NCBI GenBank assembly: GCA_937997485.1
Contig: CALKTH010000004.1
Location: forward strand, 46,382-110,381
Direction of reading: 5' to 3'
DNA length: 64,000 nucleotides
From: an uncultured Acidimicrobiales bacterium
Lineage (GTDB): Bacteria > Actinomycetota > Acidimicrobiia > Acidimicrobiales > SZUA-35
In this document: piece after piece, positions 25,974-62,900 of the stretch
Numbering within the stretch: position 1 is the first letter of the stretch
Layout of the letters: every line of letters begins with the position of its first letter
Position numbers and translations under genes: made by a program
Notes under the pieces: generated by a model
Seen by the model: the letters and a program-made list of their open reading frames with translations, nothing else
Told to the model about the DNA's origin: nothing
Databases searched by the model: none

Positions 25974-25994
25974 GTCACCAGACTGGCTCAGCGC

Positions 25995-26000
25995 TAGGGT
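25995..26000 (+). promoter_or_regulatory. -10 box, leaderless prcBA mRNA
   Basis: TAGGGT, 8 bases, then GTG at 26009. It lies in a 35-bp gap shared with the divergent esterase gene. Confidence 0.65.
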
Positions 26001-26008
26001 TCGCTGCT

Positions 26009-27540: not shown

Positions 27541-27563
27541 GCTGGCGGTCGGGCTGCGCGGCT

Positions 27564-27578
27564 AGGTCATTTTGACCT
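27564..27578. promoter_or_regulatory. Perfect palindrome AGGTCA-TTT-TGACCT
   Basis: A 15-bp dyad lies 24 bp after the prcA stop and about 34-50 bp before the start of the PAS-GGDEF-EAL gene. It is AT-richer than its surroundings and has no U tract, so an operator is more likely than a terminator. Confidence 0.4.
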
Positions 27579-27611
27579 CCGTGATCGGTCCCTATTCAAC
27601 CTGACGATCGT

Positions 27612-30080
27612 TTGGGCCGATGGACTGGCGTGGTCAACAACGTCACCGGGCGCCCAGCCTCGAACGCGAACTCTTCAGCAACGCCGCTGAGCGACGCGGT
27701 CTTGTTGGAGTTGCGCGTCGATGCGCAGCTGGTCGTCACATCGGTGGAACGACTCCCAGCTGGTCTCTCCGTTCTCGGTGGCTCGATTGCCGACCTTGTC
27801 GAACCGACAGATCGAGGACGCTTCACCGACATTGCTCGAAGTGCCATCATCAACCAGCGAAGCCGCTGGGCGGTCGTGGTCATCGACGCGAGTACCCCCC
27901 AACCCATGCGTGTCACGCTGGTGCCGTTCAACGGCGACGGCGGAGACGGACTCCACGTCTACGGCATCCCGACGGATCGCCGGTCCGTTCTCTCCGCTGA
28001 TTCTGGGAGTCCCGCAGCTCCCGTCATCGATGAAGTCGAACTGGCAACCACGCTGCTGGATCTCGTTCCGTGCGCGGTGTTCGTCAAAGACCGGCACGCC
28101 CGTTTCGTCGCTGTGAACAAGGCGTTGTACCGAGCGCTTGGGTGCGACCATGAGCTGGACATGATTGGTCGGAGCGATCGCGACTTCCACGCCAGGGCGG
28201 AGGCCGACGTCTACCACGCCATCGATGAGCAGATCATGGCGACCGGCGAGCCGGTGTTCGATCTCGAAGAGGTCCAGACGCGACCGAACGGCACAGTCGA
28301 GATCGTCCGTACGACCAAGCTTCCCGTCCGAGACACCGCAGGCCAGGTCGTCGGACTCATGGGGTTCTCCACCGATGTCACCGAGCCCGTACGGGTTGCC
28401 GAGGCCCTGTTGGCCAGCGAGCAGCGGTACGCGCTCGCTGCTCGAGCCTCTCGGGATGGCATCTGGGAGCTGGATGTTGCCACCGACGACGTCACGCTGT
28501 CGCCTCGGTGCTGCCAGCTCTTTGGCATTCCCGTCACCAGTCGCCCTGTCGACTGGGAGCTGATCTTCGCCCGCCTTGGGCATGAGCAGACACTCGCCAT
28601 GCAAGCCTTGGTCGATGCGTTCGTGAAGGAGCCATCGCCGTATCTCGAGTTCGAACTCTCCGTTCATGACCACGAGGGCAACGAGCGGTGGATCCAGCTC
28701 GTGGGGACCACGGACGAGGTAGACGGGACCGTCCGCCGTGTGGTCGGTTCTGCAGCCGACATCACCGAAGATCGTCTGCGGGAGCAGGAATTGCTCCGCC
28801 TCGCATTCAACGACGATCTGACCGGATTGCCGAACCGACGAGCGCTCACCAAAGCAATCGACGAGTCGTCCGGCACGCTGCTCTACCTCGATCTGGACTC
28901 GTTCAAGGTCATCAACGACTCGCTTGGGCATCACGCGGGTGACGAGATGCTGACAACGGTTGCGGATCGGCTTCGGTTCACGGTCAGGGCCAGCGAGGCA
29001 GGTGGCACCGTGCACCGCCTTGGCGGCGACGAGTTCGCCGTGTTGATCGAGTCGACCGATACCCGAGTCGTTGGCAAGCTCGCCCGCGACATCCACGAAG
29101 CGATCGGCGCCCCGATCTGGATCTCCGGGCTCGAGATTTATTCGACTGCGAGCGTGGGGATCGCACACATTGTCGGTGCGGCAGGCAACGGGGAGACCGC
29201 AGCCACGGTGCTCCGCAACGCCGACATCGCCATGTACGAGGCCAAGCGGGCGGGACGGAACCGGACGCGTATCTTCGCTACGGAGATGCGGGAACGGGCG
29301 GATCAGCAACTCGATCTGCAGATGCGGCTACGCCGAGCGGTGGAGGAGATGGAGTTCACGCTCCACTACCAGCCGCTGTTCGACGGCCCGTCGGGAACCA
29401 TGACCGGTGTGGAAGCGCTGCTTCGCTGGTCCCCGCCGGGTCAGGATGTCTCTGGCCCAGCCTTGTTCCTTCCGTATCTGGAGGAGACGAATCTGATCGT
29501 CGAAGTCGGCAGATTCGTCATGGACGAGGCATGCCGGCAGATGGCCGAGTGGCGGTCGCACAATCCGGAGATGGATTCGGTTCATCTCGCAGTGAACGTG
29601 TCTCGCAAACAGTTCGACTCCGGTCTCCTGACCGAACAGGTGGCCGATTCACTGTCCCGCCATGGTCTCGACGCGACAGACCTGATCGTGGAGATCACCG
29701 AAACCGCCGTGACCGACTGTCCGGCCGATCTCGTCGCTCGGCTGAGCGAACTCCGGGCGATGGGAGTGAAGATCGCCATCGATGACTTTGGTGTGGGTCA
29801 GTCGTCGCTGAGCCAGCTCTACGGTTTGCCGGTCGACATTCTGAAGGTTGATCGCAGCTTTGTGTCCAGGCTCGAAGCCGGCGAGCCCGAACCCGTGACC
29901 GATGCCGTGCTGGCCATCGCTGCCTCCCTTGGCTTGCGCACTGTCGCAGAGGGCATCGAGTCCGCCGAGCAGATGGAATGGCTGGTGGCTGCAGGCTGCA
30001 ACACGATGCAGGGCTATCACCTATCTCGACCGGTCGCTCCGGACCGAATTCCGTCGCTGCTGACGATCCACTGCCCGTAG
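27612..30080 (+). CDS. PAS-PAS-GGDEF-EAL c-di-GMP turnover protein
   Basis: 822 aa from TTG at 27612; a GTG at 27630 fits as well, and neither has a clear ribosome site. There are no membrane helices, so it is cytoplasmic. Two PAS domains lie at about 135-260 and 265-390 (PCAVFVKDRHARFVAVNKALY; RDGIWELDVATDDVTLS). The GGDEF domain (395-550) keeps RLGGDEFAVLIE and the EAL domain (565-815) keeps EALLRW, DDFGVGQSSLSQLY and KVDRSFV, so both synthesis and breakdown of c-di-GMP are possible. Its place inside the proteasome locus is unusual. Confidence 0.9.
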   Translation: MGRWTGVVNNVTGRPASNANSSATPLSDAVLLELRVDAQLVVTSVERLPAGLSVLGGSIADLVEPTDRGRFTDIARSAIINQRSRWAVVVIDASTPQPMRVTLVPFNGDGGDGLHVYGIPTDRRSVLSADSGSPAAPVIDEVELATTLLDLVPCAVFVKDRHARFVAVNKALYRALGCDHELDMIGRSDRDFHARAEADVYHAIDEQIMATGEPVFDLEEVQTRPNGTVEIVRTTKLPVRDTAGQVVGLMGFSTDVTEPVRVAEALLASEQRYALAARASRDGIWELDVATDDVTLSPRCCQLFGIPVTSRPVDWELIFARLGHEQTLAMQALVDAFVKEPSPYLEFELSVHDHEGNERWIQLVGTTDEVDGTVRRVVGSAADITEDRLREQELLRLAFNDDLTGLPNRRALTKAIDESSGTLLYLDLDSFKVINDSLGHHAGDEMLTTVADRLRFTVRASEAGGTVHRLGGDEFAVLIESTDTRVVGKLARDIHEAIGAPIWISGLEIYSTASVGIAHIVGAAGNGETAATVLRNADIAMYEAKRAGRNRTRIFATEMRERADQQLDLQMRLRRAVEEMEFTLHYQPLFDGPSGTMTGVEALLRWSPPGQDVSGPALFLPYLEETNLIVEVGRFVMDEACRQMAEWRSHNPEMDSVHLAVNVSRKQFDSGLLTEQVADSLSRHGLDATDLIVEITETAVTDCPADLVARLSELRAMGVKIAIDDFGVGQSSLSQLYGLPVDILKVDRSFVSRLEAGEPEPVTDAVLAIAASLGLRTVAEGIESAEQMEWLVAAGCNTMQGYHLSRPVAPDRIPSLLTIHCP

Positions 30081-30083
30081 CCT
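30078..30083 (+). promoter_or_regulatory. -10 box, leaderless hydrolase mRNA, overlapping the upstream stop
   Basis: TAGCCT, 7 bases, then GTG at 30091. Its first three bases are the TAG stop of the EAL gene. Confidence 0.6.
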
Positions 30084-30090
30084 CGACGAG

Positions 30091-30735
30091 GTGCTGCCGG
30101 AACTCTTGCCCGTCGTGCTCGTCCACGGAGGCTTGTACGAAGATATGACGCCGGGCGAGTTCTGGGGCGAAACCGGTGTGCTTGCCGCGCTCGCGGCGAC
30201 GAACACGCCCTTTATCGCTCCCCAGCGACCGCGCAAACCGCAGTCGTGGGCCGAAGAGCGCCGCTGGTTGAGCGAGTCCATCGATGAGGCGGGCTTCGAC
30301 CGAGTTGCCCTTGTCGGGGCATCCAATGGGTGCAGTGCCGCTGCTCGGGTGGCCATCGACGAGCCGCATCGCGTGGCCCGCCTCATGCTGGCGTGGCCGG
30401 CCACGGCAAACGATCAGGTGCTGGATGGCCTGGCACGAATCATCATCACCGACGAGATCGGTGAGGCCGCAGCGGACGCACTCCTTCGAGGCGACACGCT
30501 GCGAGGCGTTGCCGATGCCGAGCTTTCCGCCCTGTCGTCGCCGGTTGTGGTGTATCCCTCACTACCGGAGAACCACGCCCACCAGCGGCACACCGTGATG
30601 GGCATCCTGGCTGCTCAGCCGAACGCATTCCTCGTCGGCGGGAGCCCTGAGCCGCCCGACAAGCAGTTTCCCGAGTACCTCGATGCGTTCATCACCATGG
30701 TCACCGAGTTCGCCCGAATCGAACACGATGACTGA
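30091..30735 (+). CDS. Small alpha/beta hydrolase-like protein
   Basis: 214 aa, start GTG. VVLVHGGLYEDMTPGEFWGE resembles the first strand and oxyanion loop, and VALVGASNGCSAAARVA the nucleophile elbow with Ser. ENHAHQRHTV may provide the His. The length and weak cap region place it in a poorly described subgroup. It lies between the c-di-GMP gene and pafA. Confidence 0.7.
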   Translation: MLPELLPVVLVHGGLYEDMTPGEFWGETGVLAALAATNTPFIAPQRPRKPQSWAEERRWLSESIDEAGFDRVALVGASNGCSAAARVAIDEPHRVARLMLAWPATANDQVLDGLARIIITDEIGEAAADALLRGDTLRGVADAELSALSSPVVVYPSLPENHAHQRHTVMGILAAQPNAFLVGGSPEPPDKQFPEYLDAFITMVTEFARIEHDD

Positions 30736-30930
30736 GTGAGAGGAATACGGTCGCCCAACGTCTTGCCGGTCGTCGCTACAGCCATGAGCCTGCGGTTCTG
30801 CCCAACAGACGGGTGGAGCGCTCGAACTGGTACGAGTGGGACGTGCGAGCGCGACGGTGTCCTGCGTTGCCTGGTGGAACCGATGCAGAGAGTCACCGTG
30901 TCTGAAGCGCGTCGCGGCGGGGAAGCCCAC

Positions 30931-30936
30931 TAGGTT
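30931..30936 (+). promoter_or_regulatory. -10 box, leaderless pafA mRNA
   Basis: TAGGTT, 7 bases, then ATG at 30944. The 208 bp between 30736 and 30943 contain no other supported feature. Confidence 0.65.
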
Positions 30937-30943
30937 GGCGACG

Positions 30944-32308
30944 ATGGTTCCGCAGCGGCGTATCTATGGCATCGAAACTGAGTACGGCGTCACGTGCACT
31001 TTGCGCGGTCAACGTCGCCTGAGCCCAGACGAAGTCGCCCGCTACCTGTTCCGACGGGTGGTGAGCTGGGGCCGGAGCTCGAACGTGTTCCTCGTGAACG
31101 GCGCTCGCCTCTATCTCGACGTTGGTAGCCACCCCGAATACGCCACCGCCGAATGTGACTCGATTGGCGACGTCGTTATTCACGACAAGGCGGGCGAACG
31201 CATTCTCGAACAGCTTCTCGACGCCGCCGAGGAGCGGCTCCGTGACGAGGGCATCCGAGGCACCGTTCATCTGTTCAAGAACAACACGGACTCAGCCGGG
31301 AACTCTTACGGCTGCCACGAGAACTTCCTGACCACCCGCAACGACGACATGGCGCACTACAACGAGGTGCTCATCCCGTTCCTCGTGAGTCGCCAGATCT
31401 ATGCCGGCGCCGGGAAAGTCCTCCAGACGGCACGCGGTTCGATGTTTGCCGTGAGCCAGCGGGCCGAGCACATTTGGGAAGGCGTGAGCAGTGCCACCAC
31501 GCGGAGCCGACCCATCATCAACACTCGGGACGAGCCCCACGCCGACGCCGAACACTTCCGCCGCCTTCACGTGATCGTTGGCGACTCAAACATGAGCGAG
31601 TACACGACCTATCTGAAGGTCGGCGCCATGGCCATCCTGCTTCGCATGGTCGAAGATCCGTCGTGTGTCTTGCGAGACATGACACTCGAAAACCCCATTC
31701 GAGCGATTCGCGAGATCAGCCACGACCTCACGTTCCAGCGCAAGGTGCGGCTGGCGAATGGTCGAGAAGCCTCCGCGCTCGACATCCAGTCGGAGTATCT
31801 GAACCGGGCACTGCGATACGCCGATCAAAAGGGGCTTCCGGACGACGAAATGAAGGCGTTGCACATGTGGGAACACGTGATGACGCATCTCGAAACTGAT
31901 CCGTTCAAGCTCGATCGAGAGCTCGACTGGGTCATCAAGCACAACCTCGTCGAGGCGTATCGGGCCAAGCATGGTCTCGAACTCAGCGACGCTCGAGTGC
32001 AACTGCTCGATCTCCAATATCACGATGTTCGCCGTAGCCGGGGCCTGTTCTACAAGCTCCAGGATCGTGGCCTGGTGGAACGAACCCTGGATGATCAGCA
32101 GATGTTTGATGCGATCGATACGCCACCCCAGACCACTCGAGCCAAGCTCCGGGGCGACTTCATTCGCCGGGCGAAGGAACGCAAGCGGGACTACACCGTC
32201 GACTGGGTCCATCTGAAGCTGAACGATCAGGCGCAACGCACTGTCTTGTGTAAGGACCCGTTCAAGAGTGAGGACGAGCGCGTCACCAAGCTCATCGAGA
32301 GCCTTTGA
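30944..32308 (+). CDS. pafA: Pup-protein ligase PafA
   Basis: 454 aa. It activates the C-terminal Glu of Pup with ATP and joins it to substrate lysines. [11 protein letters not shown] carries the metal-binding Glu residues, and [28 protein letters not shown] is the shared ligase core. It lacks the Dop-specific loop. The frame runs 36 codons upstream, but the -10 box and the conserved protein start at [11 protein letters not shown] fix the ATG at 30944. Confidence 0.97.
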
Positions 32309-32333
32309 GCGTCCCGACGTTTCGTCGGAACGC
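32309..32333 (+). terminator. Hairpin between pafA and pafB
   Basis: CCGACG, loop TTT, CGTCGG, extended outward by GCGT and ACGC with one C/A mismatch. It starts at the base after the pafA stop. No U tract, so it may attenuate rather than end transcription into pafB. Confidence 0.45.
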
Positions 32334-32371
32334 CCACATCACCGGATTCGAAAGCGAAAGCGAAACAAGCG

Positions 32372-33310
32372 ATGTCCAAGTTGGAGCGGCTGCTGAACCT
32401 CACCGCCGTGCTGCTGGAGACGACCCAACCCCTGTCGGCAAACCAGATTCACGAGCGCATCGAGGGCTATCCCGAGGCCTTTGACTCGTTCCGCCGAGCG
32501 TTCGAGCGTGACAAGGACGATCTCCGCGTCCTCGGGGTGCCGCTGGCCATCGAGCGCGTTCCCGGAATGGATCCCCCGCTGGATGGCTACCGCATCCGTC
32601 CCGAGGAGTATTACCTTCCGGACCCAGGACTAGAGCCTGACGAGCTCGCCGCGATCCATCTCGCCTCCCTGACCGTCAAACTGGACGGATTCGGTGACCG
32701 CGAGGCGCTGTGGAAGCTCGGCGGGATCAGCGACGTTGACGTTTCCCGCGGCGCCGAGGCCGTCGCCAACCTGCCAACCGATCCGGCTCTGGTGCCCATT
32801 TTCGCCGCCATCACGGACAAGCGACGCTTGGCGTTCACATACAACGGCGCGGAGCGGAGCATCGATCCCTGGCGCATCGACTTTCATCGGGGCCGCTGGT
32901 ATCTGACGGGTCTTGATCACACCAGGGGAGAGGAACGGCAGTTCCGCCTCGACCGCATCGAGGGTGAGGTCCAACCCGAGGGTGAAGCCGGTGTCGCCCA
33001 GCGGCCCGAGGCGCCCGTCTCCGGTCGGCGGCTCCCATCATGGGAGATCGGCGATGAGGCGCCGACGATGGTCGACCTCTTGGTCGATGGTTCTCACGCT
33101 GCGTGGGCTGCACAACAGTTCGGGCCGGACGTCGAGTTTGTCGAACACGCCGATGGCAGCATCACCTTCACGGTTCCGGTCGTCATGAGGCATGCCTTCC
33201 GATCGTTCGTCATCGACTTCCTCGACCACGCCGAGATCGTTGGGCCACCAGACATGCGCGAAGAATTCATGGACTGGTTGCGAACCGTCGCTACCGGAGG
33301 TTCACGATGA
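32372..33310 (+). CDS. pafB: WYL-domain transcription regulator PafB
   Basis: 312 aa. An N-terminal winged helix (KLERLLNLTAVLLETTQPLSANQIHERI in parts) precedes a WYL domain (FTYNGAERSIDPWRIDFHRGRWYLTGLD in parts; the motif reads W-Y-L at GRWYLTG) and a WCX domain. In mycobacteria PafB and PafC form a heterodimer that activates the LexA-independent DNA-damage response, with single-stranded DNA as ligand. It overlaps pafC by ATGA. Confidence 0.93.
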   Translation: MSKLERLLNLTAVLLETTQPLSANQIHERIEGYPEAFDSFRRAFERDKDDLRVLGVPLAIERVPGMDPPLDGYRIRPEEYYLPDPGLEPDELAAIHLASLTVKLDGFGDREALWKLGGISDVDVSRGAEAVANLPTDPALVPIFAAITDKRRLAFTYNGAERSIDPWRIDFHRGRWYLTGLDHTRGEERQFRLDRIEGEVQPEGEAGVAQRPEAPVSGRRLPSWEIGDEAPTMVDLLVDGSHAAWAAQQFGPDVEFVEHADGSITFTVPVVMRHAFRSFVIDFLDHAEIVGPPDMREEFMDWLRTVATGGSR

Positions 33311-52533: not shown

Positions 52534-55008
52534 GTGAGCGACCAGGCGGAAACCGAGTCTCGCGACGGCGCGTCGGCGATCGAAGACGCCGCGGCCTTCG
52601 ACCTCGAACTCGAACTCGAGAACGCCGTCATCAAACAAATCGACGCCGCACACGGTCGAGACCTCGAGCGGGCGCGTGCCGTTGCGCGGCAGCTGGCTGA
52701 CGAAGCCGCAGAGGCCTCAGAAGAAGGCATTCGAGACCTCGTCGACGAAGACGGCGAAGTGGATGCCGCGGTTCGAGCAGCGCTCGTGCGTCAGACCTCG
52801 GCACGAGCCATGCATGCCTTTCGGCGGGCACAGGAGCTGGAAGATCTCGGCGATGCGCTCGCGTTCGGCCGCGTGGTGAACGATGCGGGCGAGACCACGT
52901 ACATCGGCCGTCACAGCGTCATCGAGGGGGACGATGCGCTTCTTGTTGACTGGCGAGCACGCGCCGCTATGCCGTTCTACCGAGCGACGCCGATGGAGCG
53001 GCTCGGTGTCCAGCGACGCCGCCACTTGCTCTACGGCGAGGGCGAACACAGCCACGAGCTGGCTGGCTATTCAGACGAGGTCTTTGACGTCGACGACTTG
53101 CACCGGCACCAGGGCCTTCGGGGAGAAGCGGCGATTCTCGCCTCCGTTTCGGCCCCAACGGCGCAGCAGATGCAATCGGTCGTGGCCACGATCCAGGCCG
53201 AGCAAGATGCGATCGTTCGTGCACCGAGCGATGGTGCGCTTGTCGTACAGGGTGGGCCCGGCACGGGCAAGACCGTCGTCGCACTGCACCGTGCGGCCTA
53301 TCTGTTGTACGACCAGCGGGCCGAGCTGGCCGACACCGGCGTGCTCATCGTCGGGCCCAGTAGCGAGTTCCTGAGCTACATCGCTGGGGTTCTGCCGTCG
53401 CTGGGGGAGAGCGGAGTGGTGTCGCTCACGGCCGAGCAGCTCTATCCAGGTGTCCTGTTGGGCCGCTCCGAGGACGCCGCCGTTGCGGCGACGAAGGGCC
53501 GGCCCGAGATGGCCTTGCTCCTGGCGCAGGCGGTCAAGGACCGGCAGCGCCAGCCTCAGAGCGATCTCAAGGTTCGATACGGGGCAACCCGGGTCCGGTT
53601 GACCGCGTCCGAACTGCAGCGGTTGTTCGTACGAGCACAGCGTTACCGAGCCCACAACGAGGGTTCGAACGCCTTCCGAGCGCTGGTCATCGAAGCCTTG
53701 TGCGACGCGGTGTACGACCCGTCGTTCAACAATCGGGCGGATGCACGAGAGACGTTCTCCCGTAGTTCTGAGGTCGAGCGATTCCTTTTGCGTCATTGGC
53801 CGTCGTTGACTCCCGAGCAGGCGCTGAATGATCTCTTTGGATCCTCAGCACTGCTTCGGCTGGCGCGCCGAGACACGGGACTGCGAACTCGTGATGTTCT
53901 CCCGATGTGGCGTGAACGAGTTGACGAGGAGGATCTCGATCGGTCGAGGTGGACGGTGGCTGACGCCCCGCTGCTCGACGAACTCCTGGTGCTTGTGGGC
54001 GGCAAGCTGGGCGGACAAACCGAGGAGGAACGCAGCAAGGAACGTGACGCCGCTGACGAGTTCGAGCTGAGCGAGGAGGAAGACGAATCCGTCAGCCTCG
54101 ATGCCGAGGACCTCGCGGTCGACCCGGGTCTGTTGGACTTCGAGGATCCGTGGACGGTCGAGGATGAGCCGGCCGACCCCGAGGATGTGATGGCTCACGC
54201 CGACCTGCTCCACGAGGACGTCGAAGGCAGCACCGTCGAGGTGGACCTCGAGGAAGAAGGCGAGCTCATTCCTGACAGCGTTGACGCGCTGGAGGATGGG
54301 GGAGTGACCGTCGCGGAGCTGGCCTTCGGCCAGCGGGACTGGCGTTTCGGCCATGTGATTGTGGATGAAGCGCAAGATCTCACCCCGATGCAGTGGCGCA
54401 TGATCGTCCGCCGAGCCCGAGGCGGTTCGATGACGATTGTTGGCGATCTGGCTCAGCGTTCGACCGGAGAACCTGGAGCGCTGGTCGAAGGGTGGCGCTC
54501 GCTTGTCCCCTCGTCGATCGCGTCCTTCAGCTATCGAGAGCTCACGGTCGACTACCGGTCGCCGGCGGAGATCAACGCGCTTGCAGCTCGGGTCTTGGCC
54601 GAGATCGCGCCCGCCCTGCCCAGTCCACGCCCGATTCGCACGGTCGGCCGAGCACCCGCAGCAGTGTGTCTGCATCGTGACCGGCTCGTAGAAGATCTGG
54701 TGGCGCTGGCCCGGAGCGTGCGCTCGGACACGGTTGGCACGGTTGCAGTGGTTGGCTTCGAACTCCCGCAGAGGCTGCACGCCGTCGATGGTGTGGCGGT
54801 GCTTGACCCGTGGCAGGCGAAGGGCCTGGAATTCGATGCGGCAATTGTCGTGGAGCCGGCGCGTATTCTCGAAGAGCCTCACGGCCCGAGCCTGCTTTAT
54901 GTCGCAATCACCCGGGCGACCCAATCACTCACGATTGCAGGAGTGGCGCCGCTGCCATCGATCTTGGGCCGTCTGGATCCACTCCAGGCATCCGCCGAAT
55001 CGTCCTGA
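52534..55008 (+). CDS. helR: HelD/HelR-type RNA polymerase recycling ATPase
   Basis: 824 aa, start GTG. The N-terminal part (YIGRHSVIEGDDALLVDWRARAAMPFYRAT, cited in parts; RRRHLLYGEG) is the HelD signature that enters RNA polymerase. SF1 motifs: Walker A GGPGTGKT near 242, Walker B VDEAQDLTPMQW near 608, DYRSPAEI and LYVAITRATQSL near 788. Actinobacterial HelR displaces rifamycins and frees stalled polymerase. A very acidic insert spans about residues 505-590. Confidence 0.88.
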   Translation: MSDQAETESRDGASAIEDAAAFDLELELENAVIKQIDAAHGRDLERARAVARQLADEAAEASEEGIRDLVDEDGEVDAAVRAALVRQTSARAMHAFRRAQELEDLGDALAFGRVVNDAGETTYIGRHSVIEGDDALLVDWRARAAMPFYRATPMERLGVQRRRHLLYGEGEHSHELAGYSDEVFDVDDLHRHQGLRGEAAILASVSAPTAQQMQSVVATIQAEQDAIVRAPSDGALVVQGGPGTGKTVVALHRAAYLLYDQRAELADTGVLIVGPSSEFLSYIAGVLPSLGESGVVSLTAEQLYPGVLLGRSEDAAVAATKGRPEMALLLAQAVKDRQRQPQSDLKVRYGATRVRLTASELQRLFVRAQRYRAHNEGSNAFRALVIEALCDAVYDPSFNNRADARETFSRSSEVERFLLRHWPSLTPEQALNDLFGSSALLRLARRDTGLRTRDVLPMWRERVDEEDLDRSRWTVADAPLLDELLVLVGGKLGGQTEEERSKERDAADEFELSEEEDESVSLDAEDLAVDPGLLDFEDPWTVEDEPADPEDVMAHADLLHEDVEGSTVEVDLEEEGELIPDSVDALEDGGVTVAELAFGQRDWRFGHVIVDEAQDLTPMQWRMIVRRARGGSMTIVGDLAQRSTGEPGALVEGWRSLVPSSIASFSYRELTVDYRSPAEINALAARVLAEIAPALPSPRPIRTVGRAPAAVCLHRDRLVEDLVALARSVRSDTVGTVAVVGFELPQRLHAVDGVAVLDPWQAKGLEFDAAIVVEPARILEEPHGPSLLYVAITRATQSLTIAGVAPLPSILGRLDPLQASAESS

Positions 55009-55047: not shown

Positions 55048-55063
55048 TGTGATTGCGATCACG
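55048..55063. promoter_or_regulatory. CRP/GlxR-type binding site
   Basis: TGTGATTGCGATCACG matches TGTGA-N6-TCAC. Its centre (55055.5) is about 42 bases before the start of transcription predicted from the next -10 box, the position of class II activation. Confidence 0.6.
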
Positions 55064-55085
55064 GTCAGCCGGTCGCCACCTGATT

Positions 55086-55091
55086 TACCGT
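55086..55091 (+). promoter_or_regulatory. -10 box of the iniB-like gene
   Basis: TACCGT within CCTGATTTACCGT. A leader of about 48 bases follows with AAGAGGGA before ATG at 55146. Confidence 0.6.
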
Positions 55092-55145
55092 CCTCTTCAA
55101 CGAACCGGAGGGGGCCTCCCTCCACAAAAAGAAGAGGGATCCATC

Positions 55146-56531
55146 ATGGACATCAACGAGCTTTTCAAGAGCCTCATGGGAACGCTGCTGAGCGATCCCG
55201 CCGAAGCATCAACCTACGCCGAGGACCCCAGCGGTTACCTCGCAGCCAGCGGCATCACCGAGATGGATCTGAGCGAACTCAACATCAACGACTCGATCGG
55301 TGATGTGAGCAACGAGCTCAACATGGCCCCGTCGGTGTCCCAGACCCTTTCCGAGGTCAACGTGGTGGACTCCACCATCGCCTCCCCGGTCTCCTCCGAG
55401 GCCACCTCAACCGGTTCCGCTCCCGCTGCCGCCGCTGCTTCCGCCTCGGCTCCTGCAGTCGCCACGGCGGCCGCTTCGGCTCCCGTCGCTCCAGCCCCGG
55501 CTCCTGCCGCCGCTGTCGTCGCTGCACCGCCCACCCCGGCTGCGCTCGAGCAGGTCATCAACGAGTACGTCACCATCGTGTACGAAGGCGACGAGACGAT
55601 CATCAACAACATCACCAACAACGACAACTCCACCGACTTCGAGATCGACATCGAAGGCGACGTCGAGGGCGATCTCGATCTCGAGATCGACAACCAGGTC
55701 GTGAACGCCAACGGCGACGGCGCAGCGGCCGCCGGCGGAGACCAAGAGGGTGTGGCCACCGGCGACGGCGCCATCGCCGTCGGCGACGACGTCAAGGACT
55801 CCCAGCTCAACTCCGGCGACGGGGCAGTGCAGCTGGGCGACGGCGCAAGCAACAGCGGCCAGGTCATCACTGGCGATGTCGACGGCATCGTGGCCGACGG
55901 TTCGGTCGAGGGCGTCGTCCAAGGCGACGGCAACACTCAGCTCAACGACAGCGACGGCAACGCCGTGGTCCAGGGTGATGGCAACGAGACCACCGTGTTC
56001 GGTGATGTCGACACTTCCGGAGGCGACTTCGTGAACGGCGACGGCAACGAGCTGCTCGACGTGAGTGGCAGCGGCAACACCATTGGCGACGGCAACATCG
56101 ATGTCGACGGCGACGCCGTCATCGGCAACGGCAACACCACAGCCCAGGGCTCGGGTGAAGGCAACGTCAACTTCGGCTCCGGCGATGTCAACGACTTCGG
56201 CGATGCGAGCTTCGGCGACGGCGCTCAGGTGGCCACCAGCGGCGGTGCGATTCAGGACAACGACGTCACGGACAACAGCACCACCACGGTCACCCAGACC
56301 GAGAACAACAACATCAACGACTCGTTCAACACCGACAACTCGATCAACGACTCGTTGAACGACCAGTCGGACAACTCGGACAACTCGGCAAACGACTCCT
56401 TCAACACCGAGGATTCGTTCAACAGCGAGATCGAGCAGACGCAGACGGTCGAAGAGACCTTCGTTGAGACCACGGTCGATGTCGATCACGGCGAAGCCGA
56501 CGTGGCAGTCGACGACGTCGTCGACGGCTGA
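55146..56531 (+). CDS. iniB: IniB-like protein with Gly/Asp/Asn repeats
   Basis: 461 aa. Residues 1-60 match the IniB N-terminal domain (LFKSLMGTLLSDPAEASTYAEDPSGYLAASGI in parts). An Ala/Pro/Ser stretch follows (about 75-135), then some 280 residues of GDG, GDGN and VDG-rich repeats that look like a beta-solenoid, ending in Asn/Asp/Ser/Thr-rich sequence. No signal peptide is clear. In mycobacteria iniB leads the cell-wall-stress operon iniBAC. The frame is open 31 codons upstream, but the ribosome site fixes ATG at 55146. Confidence 0.85.
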   Translation: MDINELFKSLMGTLLSDPAEASTYAEDPSGYLAASGITEMDLSELNINDSIGDVSNELNMAPSVSQTLSEVNVVDSTIASPVSSEATSTGSAPAAAAASASAPAVATAAASAPVAPAPAPAAAVVAAPPTPAALEQVINEYVTIVYEGDETIINNITNNDNSTDFEIDIEGDVEGDLDLEIDNQVVNANGDGAAAAGGDQEGVATGDGAIAVGDDVKDSQLNSGDGAVQLGDGASNSGQVITGDVDGIVADGSVEGVVQGDGNTQLNDSDGNAVVQGDGNETTVFGDVDTSGGDFVNGDGNELLDVSGSGNTIGDGNIDVDGDAVIGNGNTTAQGSGEGNVNFGSGDVNDFGDASFGDGAQVATSGGAIQDNDVTDNSTTTVTQTENNNINDSFNTDNSINDSLNDQSDNSDNSANDSFNTEDSFNSEIEQTQTVEETFVETTVDVDHGEADVAVDDVVDG

Positions 56532-56552
56532 TCGCAACGGTGCGAAGCGCTT

Positions 56553-56579
56553 GGAGCGGATCCCAGTGGGATCCGCTCC
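56553..56579 (+). terminator. 12-bp perfect hairpin between iniB and iniA
   Basis: GGAGCGGATCCC, loop AGT, GGGATCCGCTCC. No U tract follows. It lies 21 bp after the iniB stop within a 146-bp gap that otherwise shows no clear promoter. Confidence 0.6.
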
Positions 56580-56677
56580 GGCGCGACACCGGACACAGAT
56601 CTGGCGGAGGAGGCTCCGCACTGATGCTCCGGATTTGATAGTGAAGTGGTAGTGCAAGACACGAGGGGAGCGGACGG

Positions 56678-58516
56678 ATGAGTCAAGTGGTGGACGACAT
56701 TCAGAACGACGAGATGATGGCGACACTCGAGCTGGCGGGCCAGGCCTGCACGGCCTACGAGCGGCCCGATCTGGGCAAGCGAATGGAACGGGCGCTGGAG
56801 TCCGTCACCACCACGGACGCTCGTGTCGTCGTGGTCGGAGAGTTCAAGCAGGGCAAGAGCACGCTCATCAACTCGCTCCTCAACGTGAACGTCTGCCCGG
56901 TTGATGACGACATCGCCACTGCCGTCCCCACCGCCATTCGCTTCGGAGAGCGCTTCCACGCCGAAGCTGTCGTGCTTCCTCGTGGCGAAGAAGCCCCTGA
57001 GCCTGTGTCTTGGAGTCTGACTGCGGCGCAGATTCCGATGATGGTCACCGAGGGCAACGACGCCTATCCGGAAGTGGAAGTGAAGGGCGTCGAGGTCTCG
57101 ATGCCGAAGGCCCTTTTGAAGTCGGGCCTCATGCTGGTGGACACTCCCGGAGTCGGCGGACTGGGATCAGCCCACGCCACGGCCACCTTGGGAGCGCTGT
57201 CCATCGCTGACGCTGTTGTCTTCGTCACCGATGCGTCGCAAGAGCTGACGAACGCCGAGCTCGAGTTCCTCGAGCAGGCTCGCCAATTGTGTCCGAACGT
57301 CGTCTCCGTCCTGACCAAAATTGATTTCTATCCAGCCTGGCGACGAGTGCTCGAGTTGGACCAAAGCCACCTGCAACGACGGGGGATTGACACCGAAATC
57401 ATTCCCGTCTCGGCGGTGCTGCGACGATTTGCGGCCAAACACAACGATCGCACCGTCAACGAAGAATCGGGATTCCCCCGCCTCCTGTCGTTCCTACGAG
57501 ACGACATCGTCGGCAACGCGGCCGAACGAGCCCGCCTGCGAGCTGCCTCGGAGTTGCTCGACGTGAGCAGCACGCTGCACTCCCACTTCGAGACGAAGCT
57601 GGAGGCGCTGACGGACCCCGAAGCGGCCGAGGCGATGTTGCAGGACTTGCGCGACGCAAAGGAGCGGGCCGAGCTGCTCCGCTCGGGGTTGTCCAAGTGG
57701 CAGATCCGCTTGAACGACGGAATGACCGACATCATGGGCAACGTCGACTTCGACTTTCGAGGCCGCATGCGTCGGGTCGTAGCAGAGGCCGACGAGACAC
57801 TGTCTGAAGGCGATCCGGCCGATACGTGGGCTGAGTTCGAGCCGTGGTTGGTGAACAAGGTGTCGCAGGAAGTGATCGCGAACTACCGCTACCTCACGGA
57901 ACTGGCCTCCGAGCTCGCCTCCGATGTTGGGGACCTCTTCGCTGATGCCGGCACCGGGGCGGTAAGCCCCTTCTTGGATGTCTCGAGCCCGGAGATGCTG
58001 CTCGATCAGGTCGAAATGCGAGACGACATCGATCTCGAGAAGAAGTCGCTCGGCTCGCGTGGCTTCACCATGATGCGAGGCGGTCAGTCCGGCGTGATCA
58101 TGTTCTCGATGGTGGGAAGCATGGCGGGACTCACCGTGATCGCCCCAGTCCTCATCGGTGTTGGCCTGATCTTTGGCCGCAAGGGATTGAAGGACGAAGC
58201 GGAGCGGCAGCGGTCGATGCGGCAGAGTCAGGCCAAGAACGCCATGCGCAAATACTGCGACGACGTGAGCTTCCAAGTGAACAAAGACAGTCGAGACACC
58301 CTCAAACGGGTACAACGAACGATGCGTGATCAATTCGGTGAGCGGGCCGAAGAAGCCCGCAAGACCAGTTCCGCCTCACTGATCGAGGCGGAACGGGCGG
58401 CCAAGCTCGGGGCAGCCGAACGCCAGGCGGAAGCGAAGAACGCCAAGGCCGAACTTGCTCGGGTCGCTGCGCTGCGAGCCAAGGCCCAAGAACTTGCGGG
58501 GTTGCCAAGTGTCTGA
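56678..58516 (+). CDS. iniA: Dynamin-like GTPase, IniA-type
   Basis: 612 aa. G1 GEFKQGKSTLINSLL near 55, G3 DTPGVGG near 154, G4 TKID near 213 are all canonical. Two adjacent hydrophobic helices near 471-500 (VIMFSMVGSMAGL, VIAPVLIGVGLIFG) form a membrane paddle, as in bacterial dynamin-like proteins. The last 110 residues are a basic coiled coil. IniA in mycobacteria remodels membrane under cell-wall stress. Its end overlaps the next gene by 8 bp. Confidence 0.9.
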   Translation: MSQVVDDIQNDEMMATLELAGQACTAYERPDLGKRMERALESVTTTDARVVVVGEFKQGKSTLINSLLNVNVCPVDDDIATAVPTAIRFGERFHAEAVVLPRGEEAPEPVSWSLTAAQIPMMVTEGNDAYPEVEVKGVEVSMPKALLKSGLMLVDTPGVGGLGSAHATATLGALSIADAVVFVTDASQELTNAELEFLEQARQLCPNVVSVLTKIDFYPAWRRVLELDQSHLQRRGIDTEIIPVSAVLRRFAAKHNDRTVNEESGFPRLLSFLRDDIVGNAAERARLRAASELLDVSSTLHSHFETKLEALTDPEAAEAMLQDLRDAKERAELLRSGLSKWQIRLNDGMTDIMGNVDFDFRGRMRRVVAEADETLSEGDPADTWAEFEPWLVNKVSQEVIANYRYLTELASELASDVGDLFADAGTGAVSPFLDVSSPEMLLDQVEMRDDIDLEKKSLGSRGFTMMRGGQSGVIMFSMVGSMAGLTVIAPVLIGVGLIFGRKGLKDEAERQRSMRQSQAKNAMRKYCDDVSFQVNKDSRDTLKRVQRTMRDQFGERAEEARKTSSASLIEAERAAKLGAAERQAEAKNAKAELARVAALRAKAQELAGLPSV

Positions 58517-60059
58517 GGAATCAGCGTTTGAAGGACAGCTGGGGGCATCGGAGACGCCGTTGTCAGAGATCGGCGACACGAAGGACGATCATGCACTTCT
58601 CGTCGACCGAACACGACGGCTTGTGGAGGAGACGCGTCGGCGCTTCCCGGCCTACGACGAGGAGCTGCAAGCGGTGCTCGCTCGGTTCGACGAACCGCTG
58701 CGAGTGGCGATCGCTGGCAAGGTCAAGGCAGGCAAGTCGACGTTGCTGAACGCGCTGGTGGGGGAGCGGATCGCTCCGACCGACACTGGTGAGTGCACCA
58801 AGATCGTGACCTGGTACCAGGACAGTCACACCTACGGGGTCCGAGCTCACATGCGAGAGGGTGGCGACGTGCCAACGTTGCCATTCCGCCGTGAGGAGCG
58901 CTCGGTCACGATCGATCTTGGAGGACGCAGCCCAGACGACATCAGTCGGCTCGAAGTGGATTGGCCCTCGTCCAGCCTTCGTGAACTGACGCTGATCGAC
59001 ACGCCCGGTATCGACTCGGTCAACGCCGAAGTCGGCGCGCGATCCATCGAGTTTCTTGATGCGACGGAACGAAGCACGCCAGCCGACGCCGTTCTGTATC
59101 TGATGAAGCACATGCATGCGTCGGACTTCCATCTCCTCGAGGCGTTCCACGACGATGAGGTGTCTCAGCCCAATCCGATCAACGCCCTCGCTGTGCTCTC
59201 TCGAGCAGACGAGATCGGCGTCGGCCGACTGGATTCCATGGCCAGTGCTCGTCGCATCGCGCAGCGCTACGAGACCGATCCGCGCCTTCGCCGACTCGTC
59301 ACCGCGGTGGTTCCGGTCGCTGGCCTGCTGGGGGAGACGGCCCGAACGCTCACGCAGAACGAGTACACGCTGCTGTCCGAGCTGGCGACGGTCCCGCACA
59401 AAGACCTGGAGCCCCACCTGCTCAGCGCTGATCGGTTCCTCGAAGCTTCGCCCGAAACGCCGGGCACGTCGCTCGACCGCGAGCAGCTCCTCGGACGATT
59501 CGGAGTGTTCGGCATCCGCATTGCCCTCGTGCTGATTCGCAGGGGAGTGGTGAACTCGTCACGAGAGCTGGCGGATGAGCTTCTCAAGCGGTCCGGCGTC
59601 ATCGAGCTACGAGAGACGTTGTCGAAACTCTTCGTTGAGCGATCTGGAGTCTTGAAGGCACGGAGCGCATTGCTGGCGATCGAGAAGATCTGCACCACGG
59701 AGGGAGAGTCCGCTGACGACCTCATGGTGCAGGTGGAGCAAATCACCGCTGGTGCTCATCCGTTCCGTGAACTGGCAACGCTCGCCGCGCTTCGCAGCGG
59801 AACGATCTCCGGTCGCCCGGCCGATCTGCAGCTGCTGGAGCGAACGGTTGGTGCAAAGGGGACCGGTCCGGCACAACGGCTCGGTCTGGACGATGATGCA
59901 GACGTCTCCGCACAGCGAACTGCCGTCTTCACCCAGATCGAAGGCGCACGTCGTTTGGCGGAGAGCCCATTTACCGAGCACGATCTGGCGAAAGCCTGCA
60001 CCGTTGCCACCCGCAGTCTCGAAGGTGTTCTGAACAGCACCCCTGACGATCCATCCTGA
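58509..60059 (+). CDS. iniC: Dynamin-like GTPase, IniC-type
   Basis: 516 aa from GTG at 58509, inside the last codons of iniA. G1 AGKVKAGKSTLLNAL near 69 and G3 IDTPGID near 164 are clear. At G4 it reads LSRADEIG, so the Asn/Thr-Lys of NKxD is replaced by Ser-Arg. No membrane paddle is seen, so membrane binding may come from its IniA partner. Large dynamins of this type often act as pairs. Confidence 0.88.
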   Translation: MSEESAFEGQLGASETPLSEIGDTKDDHALLVDRTRRLVEETRRRFPAYDEELQAVLARFDEPLRVAIAGKVKAGKSTLLNALVGERIAPTDTGECTKIVTWYQDSHTYGVRAHMREGGDVPTLPFRREERSVTIDLGGRSPDDISRLEVDWPSSSLRELTLIDTPGIDSVNAEVGARSIEFLDATERSTPADAVLYLMKHMHASDFHLLEAFHDDEVSQPNPINALAVLSRADEIGVGRLDSMASARRIAQRYETDPRLRRLVTAVVPVAGLLGETARTLTQNEYTLLSELATVPHKDLEPHLLSADRFLEASPETPGTSLDREQLLGRFGVFGIRIALVLIRRGVVNSSRELADELLKRSGVIELRETLSKLFVERSGVLKARSALLAIEKICTTEGESADDLMVQVEQITAGAHPFRELATLAALRSGTISGRPADLQLLERTVGAKGTGPAQRLGLDDDADVSAQRTAVFTQIEGARRLAESPFTEHDLAKACTVATRSLEGVLNSTPDDPS

Positions 60060-60061
60060 TT

Positions 60062-60067
60062 TACCCT
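60062..60067 (+). promoter_or_regulatory. -10 box of the hsp70-like gene
   Basis: TACCCT within CCTGATTTACCCT, nearly the same element as at the iniB promoter. The leader carries GAGAGG before ATG at 60102. Confidence 0.5.
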
Positions 60068-60101
60068 GCTCGCCACGTTCCCTTCCTCCGAGAGGCCCGC
60101 A

Positions 60102-62405
60102 ATGACGTTTCGCCTAGGTATCGATCTCGGTACCACCTACACCGCCGCCGCTGTTCATCGTGAAGACAAGGCGTCGATCTTCCCGTTGGGAGGTCGGGCC
60201 GCGGCGATTCCATCCGTGGTGCACTTGCGGGAAGACGAGACGGTGCTGACCGGTGAGGCCGCAGTGCGTCGTGCGATCACCGAGCCGGACCGAGTTGCTC
60301 GAGAGTTCAAGCGACGGCTGGGAGACACGACGCCAATCATCGTTGGTGGTACGCCGTACTCGGCCGAAGCCTTGATGGCCCGCATTCTCAAGTACGTAAT
60401 GGCCGAGGTCTCCAAGCGGGAGGGCGGAGATCCGGATCACATCGCGATCTCGCATCCGGCGAACTGGGGTCCGTACAAGATTGATCTGCTGCATCAGGGT
60501 ATTCGTCGGGCCGGGATTGATCCCGACATTGTCTCCCTACTCACCGAGCCCGAGGCTGCCGCGATTTCCTACGCCCAGAGCGAGCGTGTGGACCCGGGCG
60601 AGATCGTTGCCGTCTACGACCTCGGTGGTGGCACGTTCGACGCTGCGGTGCTGCGCAAGACCGACGCCGGCTTCGAGATTCTGGGGCGTCCCGAAGGTAT
60701 TGAGCGTATGGGTGGCATCGACTTCGATGCGGCGCTGTTCGCTCACGTGAATCGCACGATCGGTGACTCCGTCCGCGAGCTCGACCCGGACGATCCGGCA
60801 AGCATCGCTGCCGTTGCTCGCCTCCGACAGGACTGCGTCGACGCCAAGGAAGCGTTGTCCTCCGATACCGACGCCTCGATTCCGGTCATGCTGCCGAATC
60901 TGCAGACCGAAATCCGGATCACCAGGGCGGAGTTCGAAGGGCTGATTCGACCTGTGCTGGCCGACAGCATCGACTCGATGCGGCGAGCGGTTGATTCGGC
61001 GAAAATCTCCCTCGACGACGTGTCTCGCATTCTTCTCGTTGGTGGCTCGAGCCGCATTCCGTTGGTGTCTCAGCTGGTTGCCTCTGAGCTTGGTCGCCCC
61101 ACCGCCGTCGATGCGCATCCCAAGCACGCCGTGGCCGTGGGTGCGGCGTACCACGCCGCAGTGGTTGCCACCGATGGCGCTGCCGCCGCATCGGAGCCCG
61201 CCAATCAACCCGTTGTACCGCCCGCAGCTCCGGTGGCTCCCGTTGCGGAAGCGGCGGCACCGCCTGCCCCGCCAGCCCCAGCCCCAGCGGCCGCGCCCGA
61301 AGCGCCGGCGCCAGCGGCCTCGCCACCTCCGGCAGCCGAAGCACCGACCGAGGCGCCCCCAAGCCCCGCGCCGGTGAAACCAGTTGCCACACCGCCCAAG
61401 CCAGCGCCGTCGACGCCTCGAGTCGAGACTCCGGCGCCACGTCCGGCACCGGCTCCCGCTCCCGCTCCGGCAGCAACGAAGCCCGCTGCGCAGAAGGCAG
61501 CCCCCGCAGCGGCCGCGACGGTGGCACCACCCGCTCGTTCCGAGAGCGCCACGCCAGGAACAGCAGCGGTGGGTGCTGGCGCCTCGGCATCGTCGAGCTC
61601 AAGCAGTTCCTCAGGTGGGGGCGGAGGCGGGAAGACCATGGTGTTGGTCGCCGGTGGACTCATCGGACTCATCGCCATCGTTGGTGGCGCGATCGCCCTG
61701 ACCGGGGGCGGCGGCGATGAGACGACGGCGACCACCGTCGAGCAAGCGCCGACGACAGCGGTCATCGAAGAAACAACCACCACGACCGAGGCGACCACCA
61801 CGACCACCGAGCCGCCTCCGGATCCGGTGGCTGACGCCGACGTGTCAGCGCTGATCACCGGCCTCGATCCGGTGCAGAACGAGGTTGAGTTCGCTATCGA
61901 AGAGAACACTGTCACGCTGACCGGGGTGTTGATCGATGAGGCAACTCGTGACGGACTCGTCGCCGACTTGGAGGGGCTGGAAGCAGCACCAGAGGTCATT
62001 GTCGACGAGGTAGCGGTGCTGCCTGAAGACGAGCGGTGTACCGAACTGATTCGTTCACAGCCTGAGTGGGCCTGCCTCACCGGCGCCACCCTCGATGCCA
62101 ACGGTGTGGTGCGGGCGGAGTACGAAACCATGGTGAGCACCGGGCAGCTCTCGGTCGCCAGCGGCTTCCACCTCCACTTGTTCAGTGGCAACATCGATCC
62201 GGCCACCGCTGGAACCGCCGGTGCGGCCAGTGTCGGCGGGGGAGGGTGGCAGGTCTGGGATCAAGACACCATCGAGACCGCCGGCGCGAACATTTATGGC
62301 GGGACGGTGCCAGAGAAGATCTGCGTGCGAATCGCCAACAGTTCCCACCAATTGGTATCGCTCGACAGCGGCCAGTGCATCCTGCTCGAGACGGCCGAGG
62401 CCTGA
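60102..62405 (+). CDS. Membrane-anchored Hsp70-like ATPase with BON-like outside domain
   Basis: 767 aa. Residues 1-355 form a complete Hsp70 ATPase: GIDLGTTYTAAAV (phosphate 1), VYDLGGGTFDAAVL near 171 (phosphate 2) and LLVGGSSRIP near 311 (adenosine). The peptide-binding domain is absent. A Pro/Ala linker (360-505) leads to one helix at about 511-533, a Thr/Glu-rich stretch, a BON-like domain (about 580-640, VTLTGVLIDEATRDGLVADLE in parts) and a C-terminal region with four Cys, presumably outside. ATP state inside may thus control an outside domain. Confidence 0.88.
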   Translation: MTFRLGIDLGTTYTAAAVHREDKASIFPLGGRAAAIPSVVHLREDETVLTGEAAVRRAITEPDRVAREFKRRLGDTTPIIVGGTPYSAEALMARILKYVMAEVSKREGGDPDHIAISHPANWGPYKIDLLHQGIRRAGIDPDIVSLLTEPEAAAISYAQSERVDPGEIVAVYDLGGGTFDAAVLRKTDAGFEILGRPEGIERMGGIDFDAALFAHVNRTIGDSVRELDPDDPASIAAVARLRQDCVDAKEALSSDTDASIPVMLPNLQTEIRITRAEFEGLIRPVLADSIDSMRRAVDSAKISLDDVSRILLVGGSSRIPLVSQLVASELGRPTAVDAHPKHAVAVGAAYHAAVVATDGAAAASEPANQPVVPPAAPVAPVAEAAAPPAPPAPAPAAAPEAPAPAASPPPAAEAPTEAPPSPAPVKPVATPPKPAPSTPRVETPAPRPAPAPAPAPAATKPAAQKAAPAAAATVAPPARSESATPGTAAVGAGASASSSSSSSSGGGGGGKTMVLVAGGLIGLIAIVGGAIALTGGGGDETTATTVEQAPTTAVIEETTTTTEATTTTTEPPPDPVADADVSALITGLDPVQNEVEFAIEENTVTLTGVLIDEATRDGLVADLEGLEAAPEVIVDEVAVLPEDERCTELIRSQPEWACLTGATLDANGVVRAEYETMVSTGQLSVASGFHLHLFSGNIDPATAGTAGAASVGGGGWQVWDQDTIETAGANIYGGTVPEKICVRIANSSHQLVSLDSGQCILLETAEA

Positions 62406-62450
62406 GCGGGAATTGCCCGGCATTCACCCACCGGTCGGAGCCAGCTCGAC

Positions 62451-62456
62451 TACGGT
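62451..62456 (+). promoter_or_regulatory. -10 box of the cNMP-binding gene
   Basis: TACGGT, followed by a leader of about 27 bases with AGGAGGGA before ATG at 62490. Confidence 0.55.
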
Positions 62457-62489
62457 CTGGCCACCCATTCACAGGAGGGAAACTGTCGC

Positions 62490-62900
62490 ATGAGTGACAT
62501 GACGAAGGAATTGGCCAAGCGCTTGGGAGAGGTCCCGCTGTTCTCTGGTGTCAAGGCCAAGGAGCGCAAGACCATCGCAACGCTCGGCCGAGTCGTCGAC
62601 TGGCCTGAAGGAAAGGCCGGCGTGATCGAAGGTTCGAAGGCCGCCGCTTTCTACTTGATCCTCGAAGGTTCGGTTGAGGTCACTCGTGACGGAAAGGCTG
62701 TCGCTCGGATGAATGCGGGCAACTTCTTCGGCGAGATGGCGATGCTCACCGGCGGCGAACGCAATGCCACCGTCACGGCTGTGGAACCGACGAAGCTGTT
62801 CACTCTCCGGCGTCCAGCGTTCGCCGCAGCCATCGAGGGCAAGCCGCAGATCGCCATCGATGTCATCAAGGTCATTGCCGAGCGGCAGAACCTCAGCTGA
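62490..62900 (+). CDS. Stand-alone cyclic-nucleotide-binding domain protein
   Basis: 136 aa, a single CRP-type beta-roll without a DNA-binding domain. The phosphate-binding cassette is intact: NFFGEMAMLTGGERNATVTA with Glu82 and Arg91. It should bind cAMP or cGMP and pass the signal by protein contact. It follows the Hsp70 gene and may serve the same cluster. A separate CRP-type protein would be needed to bind the iniB site. Confidence 0.92.
   Translation: MSDMTKELAKRLGEVPLFSGVKAKERKTIATLGRVVDWPEGKAGVIEGSKAAAFYLILEGSVEVTRDGKAVARMNAGNFFGEMAMLTGGERNATVTAVEPTKLFTLRRPAFAAAIEGKPQIAIDVIKVIAERQNLS

Follow-up and report, generated by a model that had tools for sequence, protein, structure and literature searches.

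The window analysed here, a stretch of 64,000 nucleotides at the right-hand end of a contig of 110 kb from an uncultured Acidimicrobiales bacterium (genome G000), carries a cluster for an IniB-like protein, two dynamin-type GTPases resembling IniA and IniC, a protein with an Hsp70-type ATPase head and a predicted transmembrane (TM) helix, and a stand-alone cyclic-nucleotide-binding (CNB) protein. A reading-frame scan and family matches confirmed the five genes, all on the + strand between 55146 and 62900 and in the order IniB-like, IniA-like, IniC-like, Hsp70-type and CNB, as an earlier note on this DNA had given them. That note had proposed a five-part membrane-stress system in which a cyclic-nucleotide signal and the state of the envelope drive membrane remodelling by the dynamins. 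The iniBAC-like trio and the Hsp70 with its predicted membrane tether proved to be a recurrent set, and the association of IniA, IniC and the Hsp70-head protein across genomes is far beyond chance; the CNB gene does not belong to this set. We consider it about evenly balanced whether the Hsp70-head protein acts as a TM-spanning receptor that would control the IniA/IniC fission pair according to the state of the envelope.

Co-occurrence, linkage and apparent joint descent

Searches with the window proteins as queries covered 148 genomes of the class, 80 nearer relatives and 296 genomes of the phylum, the class and relatives samples overlapping (G000 and G002 among others). The best candidates were scored per genome (Hsp70/IniA: 6/4 in the phylum, 13/8 in the class and up to 25/16 in the relatives), and matches may be missed. 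The IniA query gave matches in 22 class genomes, 10 at no less than 327 bits, four at 74–92 bits and eight at 67 bits or less, and the Hsp70-head query gave 10 genomes at 321 bits or more and four at 185–198 bits, followed by DnaK-like matches at 160 bits or less. The top-tier sets of the two queries are identical (G000, G002, G004, G027, G032, G040, G048, G103, G123 and G133), as are the second-tier sets (G010, G016, G020 and G021), and an Hsp70 of either tier was found in none of the eight genomes with weak IniA matches (Fisher 7e-20 for 14/0/0/134). Among the 80 relatives, IniA was present at 254 bits or more in 23 genomes, and the Hsp70 clade (at least 284 bits) was present in 22 of these 23 and in 0 of the 57 others (Fisher 8.5e-19); among the 57, G180 reaches second-tier strength with IniA (85.6 bits), and at the edge of one of its contigs a partial match to Hsp70 (151.7 bits, 37%) was also found. 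In the phylum sample the Hsp70 clade was found in five genomes, all with IniA, and another five genomes, all from family f92, have IniA (332 bits or more) and no close member of the clade.

Loci were scanned with profiles built from 25 IniA, 25 IniC and 18 Hsp70 sequences, against which members score high by construction; the evidence independent of these profiles is that of the genome searches with the window queries. A locus was taken as testable when IniA reached at least 450 bits, IniC was present and at least 4 kb of flank was available on each side, with family f92 kept separate. The resulting 26 loci are not one per genome (G000 occurs three times and G297 twice, and Asanoa supplies four), and there may be overlap between the named loci and the unnamed ones. 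An Hsp70 gene lies within 5 kb of the dynamins at 20 of them, and a TM helix is predicted behind the head at all linked loci except L194 (19/20, hydropathy at least 1.9). At control loci of distant dynamins with equal flanks, Hsp70 was found at 0 of 8, and the second-tier loci (L061–L064 and L134) all have an Hsp70 gene within 300 bp. Chance neighbourhood was rejected on the basis of this co-occurrence and linkage.

The position of the Hsp70 gene differs among loci: downstream on the same strand in the window, upstream on the same strand at L050, farther downstream and reversed at L174, and upstream and divergent at L055, L056, L058, L059, L092, L093, L171, L172, L175 and L194. Given these several arrangements, the set is therefore not one frozen operon. 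The full set is present at the loci of Asanoa (L013 and L016–L018, L016 being from Asanoa ishikariensis DSM 44718), a genus that is not known to be pathogenic. In family f92, with classical iniBAC, a diverged TM-Hsp70 gene lies within 3 kb at all four loci with IniC and 4 kb flanks (L128–L131); L127, with a short upstream flank, has only a DnaK-like gene without a TM helix. Wherever IniA reaches at least 450 bits, IniC adjoins it, the exceptions being two solitary IniA loci of f92 (L132 and L133), which also lack Hsp70.

At 15 loci, iniC and the Hsp70 gene are separated by a conserved gene that runs on the opposite strand. Over 21 loci it encodes about 178–325 residues (for example L160:4911–5624 on the − strand, L052:12009–12986 and L049:12702–13502), with the N-terminal motif LAPVVTRVxPVPF and an acidic C-terminus; its profile was built from 11 of these 21 loci, and neither a Pfam search with four copies nor an NCBIfam search with two gave a match. 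The window lacks this gene; the other dynamin pair of the window's genome (L049) has it. In relatives that carry it, this layout implies a probable promoter of its own for the Hsp70 gene.

Trees of IniA (40 rows) and of the Hsp70 head (30 rows) have groups in common, including a cross-family group in which G133 (f17) stands with G179, G183 and G184 (f1) in both trees (support 100/100 and 100/98); several rows are long-branched and their placement is unsure. Over 30 loci, the pairwise identities of IniA and the Hsp70 head are correlated with a rho of 0.83, part of which is plain common descent; on average, the copies of IniA are 44% identical and those of the head 62%. To judge from these trees and identities, the two genes look as if they had been inherited and moved together.

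The proteins of the cluster and their neighbours

The features of the cluster are collected in Table 1. The Hsp70-head protein matches Pfam HSP70 over profile positions 2–377 of 599 only, so that the substrate-binding domain is absent. In an alignment to the DnaK of the same genome, the nucleotide motifs GIDLGTT, DLGGGTFD and GGSSRIP are retained and the DnaK interdomain linker ILLLDVTPLS is missing. The protein scores 170 bits against a DnaK cut-off of 822, and its head shares 32% identity with the DnaK-type gene at C47 of the same genome and 58–76% with the dynamin-linked copies of relatives. By its sequence, the protein is not a DnaK: the motifs of the nucleotide-binding domain (NBD) are shared with DnaK/Hsp70 chaperones, whereas the place of the substrate-binding domain and linker is taken by a predicted TM helix and an outer domain. 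The single predicted TM helix is preceded by a Pro/Ala-rich stretch and followed by an outer part of 236 residues, with Lys just ahead of the helix and Asp/Glu behind it; the predicted topology is head inside and tail outside.

Table 1. Features of the cluster, in positions of the window
Feature	Position	Strand	Basis
IniB-like protein, 461 aa	55146..56531	+	NF038175 match below cut-off; iterated N-domain profile
IniA-like dynamin GTPase, 612 aa	56678..58516	+	Dynamin_N E 9.4e-23; PDB 6j72
IniC-like dynamin GTPase, 516 aa	58509..60059	+	Dynamin_N E 1.8e-13
Hsp70-head protein with one predicted TM helix, 767 aa; NBD and Pro/Ala-rich linker before the helix, outer part after it	60102..62405	+	HSP70 E 3.1e-54
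Hsp70 nucleotide-binding domain, residues 1–357	60102..61172	+	alignment to DnaK of the same genome
Predicted transmembrane helix, residues 513–531	61638..61694	+	hydropathy 2.49
BON-like domain (predicted fold), residues 575–641 of the Hsp70 protein	61824..62024	+	AlphaFold2, Foldseek
Unclassified Cys/His outer domain, residues 644–767 of the Hsp70 protein	62031..62402	+	alignment of 18 Hsp70 proteins
Stand-alone cyclic-nucleotide-binding (CNB) protein, 136 aa; neighbour, judged outside the system	62490..62900	+	cNMP_binding E 1.7e-16

The outer part is predicted to hold a BON fold in its first half. In the AlphaFold2 model, the first 60 residues of this half have ten-residue blocks at a predicted local distance difference test (pLDDT) of 72–87 and a helix-strand-strand-helix-strand order; the mean pLDDT of the whole outer part is 55.3, and the model is usable for the BON-like half only, the Cys/His half being unreliable. 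Foldseek returned OsmY and DolP at probability 1.00 with all E values above 0.001, and the BON_like profile matched at E 0.03, below its cut-off. The Cys/His half follows the pattern C..W.C....HLHxF...C......H.....G.C, in which H116, H118, G140, C167 and C185 (numbering of the aligned piece), including the HxH, are invariant among 18 aligned Hsp70 proteins. A Pfam search with this domain gave no match, and one stand-alone relative was found, on a contig of 919 bases. When full-length proteins were searched with the outer part, the window's own protein alone came back, which reflects the word filter, as relatives are seen at the loci.

Among relatives, the outer parts vary and include a PQQ propeller (L184), an FGE-sulfatase domain (L181), repeats with DUF6923 (L175), Septum_form (L061) and a WD40 part (L134), and at L055, L092, L093 and L172 only low-complexity tails are present. 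At L194 (8085–9902, − strand), a head of the same clade carries a C-terminal FHA domain and lies 6 bp from a divergent IniA frame. The build thus described appears receptor-like, with a constant ATPase head, a predicted TM helix and swapped outer domains. Nine to eleven head matches, DnaK included, were found in G154, G163, G169, G173 and G176, each with one IniA and one IniC match, and in 20 further Hsp70-head stretches a member of the dynamin pair was seen only at L194; the head family is thus larger than its dynamin link.

Several further observations concern these paralogues. At L180–L183, tandem Hsp70-head genes have large, differing outer domains, one of them the FGE-sulfatase copy, and the tandem-copy genomes G148, G173, G167 and G163 have one IniA and one IniC match apiece. 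Tail-anchored paralogues without a dynamin in the stretch read were seen at L051 (C78 of the window's genome, 6931–8673), L185, L186, L198 and L199. A gene of exactly 164 aa lies close to the paralogue at the last four of these loci; a copy of the 164-aa gene from L187 gave no Pfam match, and at L051 a gene of 166 aa encodes a GNAT acetyltransferase.

The IniA of the window matches the solved M. smegmatis IniA (PDB 6j72) at E 1.2e-107 over residues 23–591 and, by this alignment, is a true relative of it; a TM-like hydrophobic stretch lies around residue 482. For iniC a GTG start was chosen, which gives an overlap of 8 bp with the end of iniA, and a gap of 42 bp separates iniC from the Hsp70 gene. 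The IniB start was taken at the ATG at 55146, the longest frame opening with TTG at 55053. The IniB-like protein has a helical N-terminal domain (about residues 1–48) followed by a long acidic Gly/Asp/Asn-rich repeat part, and no signal peptide was seen on inspection by eye. Its N-terminal domain matches NF038175 weakly (E 1.3e-4, 21.9 bits against a cut-off of 40), and an iterated profile of this domain built from the window found the same domain 5' of IniA in Asanoa, Ilumatobacter and others. The IniB model has a pLDDT of about 56–76 over the first 60 residues and mostly below 50 thereafter, with a mean of 40.7, and is unusable past the N-terminus. At L189 (7591–10659, G161), a gene with an IniB-type N-domain directly precedes an Hsp70-head gene, a LuxR gene is nearby, and the IniA/IniC pair lies 40 kb away on the same contig; from this arrangement, IniB may go with Hsp70 and not with the dynamins.

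Membrane fission by IniA has been published (PMC6715688), and a role of IniA and IniC in vesicle release is cited in PMC11832169. iniBAC is induced in mycobacteria upon cell-wall damage (PMC5760070, PMC13413693) and reduces envelope permeability (PMC13413693), and by homology to it the envelope-stress role suggested in the earlier note is plausible.

Two neighbouring regions of the window lie outside the cluster. Positions 52534–55008 encode a HelD/HelR-like helicase of the type that recycles RNA polymerase; it bears an acidic insert and scores 429 bits, under the cut-off of 1100. It was rejected as a cluster member, as 0 of 94 other scanned loci match. Positions 17702–33310, inspected by eye, presumably form a Pup-proteasome region with an ARC/Mpa-type ATPase, Dop- and PafA-type ligases, proteasome subunits and WYL regulators.

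Readings of the cluster

Receptor Ser/Thr kinases of the PknB type combine a constant cytoplasmic NTP-using head, one TM helix and a swappable outer domain. The Hsp70 protein of the window is predicted to follow the same plan, although its head is an Hsp70/actin-fold ATPase and no kinase. In the proposed mechanism, the outer part would bind a ligand or lipid and thereby read the state of the envelope, and this binding would alter the ATP cycle of the Hsp70 head. The head may then act on IniA/IniC assembly, directly or via IniB as an assembly platform, and damage to the envelope could in this way be followed by fission or repair of the membrane or by the shedding of vesicles. Control of the fission pair by such a receptor is the simplest reading because a predicted membrane ATPase head with variable outer sensors is tied to the dynamin pair by co-occurrence, linkage and joint descent.

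Several observations weigh against this reading. Six of the 26 testable IniA loci (L049, L057, L167, L168, L169 and L170) have no Hsp70 gene within 5 kb, and G153 has IniA without an Hsp70 of the clade. Hsp70 paralogues also occur away from dynamins, and the head may have other partners. The copies at L050, L051 and L058 have a tail anchor only, ending right after the TM helix without an outer domain, and those at L063, L134 and L194 lack a clear TM helix; neither group fits a simple receptor. Furthermore, the Hsp70 gene is often outside the iniBAC transcript because the opposite-strand gene intervenes at 15 loci, and the Fisher values overstate the evidence because the genomes share ancestry and the bit cut lines were set post hoc at gaps in the scores.

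The main rival, to which we give a distinctly smaller share of belief, is that the membrane Hsp70 serves as a sensor for transcription, binding or releasing an IniR-type STAND/LuxR regulator to induce iniBAC and leaving the dynamins untouched. Large LuxR-type genes (at least 400 aa) occur at 18 of the 26 testable loci and directly adjoin the Hsp70 gene at L013, L016–L018 (Asanoa), L146 and L174; the regulator gene is 3 bp from the Hsp70 gene at L128 and 6 bp from it at L129, and the L128 regulator is a full-scoring IniR (1414.9 bits, cut-off 750). A dnaK-like gene beside iniR in M. smegmatis is mentioned in PMC5760070 (section 10). In the window's genome, a second IniA/IniC pair (L049; C109, 5486–11228) overlaps by 4 bp with an upstream IniR-type STAND/LuxR gene, whose match to NF038181 (E 2.7e-35) is below the cut-off, and no Hsp70 gene was found there in the 19 kb read. 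On the other hand, Hsp70 and dynamins occur without LuxR in the stretch read at L050, L055, L091, L172, L175, L194 and the window, in which no large LuxR/IniR gene was found and where the contig stops 1.1 kb past the CNB gene, and the co-occurrence at genome level rests on IniA and not on IniR. The chaperone Hsc70 disassembles clathrin. By this model, Hsp70 could be a factor of the chaperone type that takes the dynamin polymer apart and is bound to the membrane only to be near its client; we regard this as unlikely. The retained nucleotide motifs and the tail-anchored copies without an outer domain would suit such a factor, whereas the missing substrate-binding domain and DnaK linker and the score far below the DnaK cut-off do not, and the variable outer domains would be left without a role. 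In Nostoc, the dynamin adjoining BDLP1 has a DnaJ-like domain (PMC6104087), an independent link between dynamins and Hsp70; there, too, a bacterial dynamin pair is tied to Hsp70 machinery, but the DnaJ-like domain is fused to the dynamin, the host is a cyanobacterium, and a membrane Hsp70 is not mentioned in the available text.

A mobile conflict (anti-phage) module, in which the dynamins protect or kill at the membrane, is highly unlikely in our view. The patchy distribution and the cross-family group in both trees would agree with it, as would the PADLOC models that match IniA (LeoBC at E 1.5e-22, LeoA at E 5.3e-14) and IniC (LeoA at E 7.9e-14) and the frequency of STAND regulators in such systems (PMC7159879). 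The Leo matches likely reflect generic dynamin similarity; PADLOC gave generic dynamin and CNB-domain hits and none for Hsp70 or IniB, the iniBAC papers found concern cell-wall stress as far as their available text goes, and no recurrent toxin or nuclease was seen among neighbours that were not systematically annotated. The GTPase-HSP70 conflict systems of Kaur et al. 2020 (PMC7159879) resemble the cluster in having GTPase and HSP70 genes, actinobacteria among their hosts and, in some cases, an HSP70 domain without the peptide-binding domain, but their GTPases are different ones and the available main text contains neither the word dynamin nor IniB. Hardly credible, finally, is the five-part machine, in which the CNB protein would feed a cyclic-nucleotide signal to the dynamins. 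The CNB fold is clear, the gene lies on the same strand 84 bp past the Hsp70 gene, and terminator-like sites across the cluster show no excess over the shuffled expectation, the promoter and terminator scan being uninformative; in this genome the CNB gene may be part of the cluster transcript. However, a CNB gene is present at 0 of the 25 other testable loci, and the 95 scanned stretches gave matches only in the window and, in the form of Crp-type transcription factors, at the control locus L135 and at L134, where the gene is 3.7 kb away from the second-tier pair. The best matches in the 80 relatives, in G155 (51%) and G205 (43%), are in genomes without an IniA match and adjoin metabolic genes (a pyruvate-ferredoxin-type enzyme and an aminotransferase). 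In the same-genus genome G148, IniB, IniA, IniC and Hsp70 are present (L158) and the best CNB match reaches only 31%. An IniA or IniC match was found around the CNB matches in none of 7 of the 9 best-scoring other genomes, and a distant Hsp70-type gene (29%) lies about 3.5 kb from a CNB match at L083 only. The CNB gene was therefore rejected as a conserved fifth member, and the cyclic-nucleotide arm of the earlier proposal falls with it. Co-occurrence of the five families, which the earlier note had suggested searching for, holds for IniA, IniC, Hsp70 and the IniB-type N-domain and fails for CNB; likewise, of the two genes whose unlinking in neighbouring genomes it had named as counter-evidence, the Hsp70 gene stays linked to iniBAC at most loci and the cyclic-nucleotide gene is unlinked.

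Relation to mycobacterial iniBAC and meaning

The cluster resembles mycobacterial iniR-iniBAC in its IniA homologue, the paired IniC, the order B-A-C and a weak IniB-type N-domain, and an IniR-type regulator stands beside the second dynamin pair of the window's genome. In contrast to that system, the window cluster includes a TM-Hsp70 gene of a distinct clade, its IniB repeats are acidic and Asp/Asn/Gly-rich, and no IniR gene is next to it. Apart from the M. smegmatis sentence, the available text of the literature, chiefly openly accessible, gave no account of this Hsp70 clade: neither its lack of a substrate-binding domain, nor its TM and outer domains, nor its joint occurrence with IniA was found described. 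Tentatively, and with somewhat more doubt than belief, the receptor reading may be widened to a family of transmembrane receptors in Actinomycetota with one type of Hsp70 ATPase head and many outer sensors, through which damage to the envelope, sensed outside, would directly gate IniA/IniC fission and vesicle release; mycobacterial iniBAC would be one reduced branch of this system.

Regarding the switching of the iniBAC dynamins at the protein level after cell-wall damage, transcriptional regulators are known and IniA-IniC pairing has been suggested, and another membrane partner was not found described in the literature as available. For this switch, a predicted membrane ATPase found so strictly together with the two dynamins offers a definite candidate. 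If the head is indeed the ATPase of a receptor, signalling through exchangeable sensors would be a further role of Hsp70 folds.

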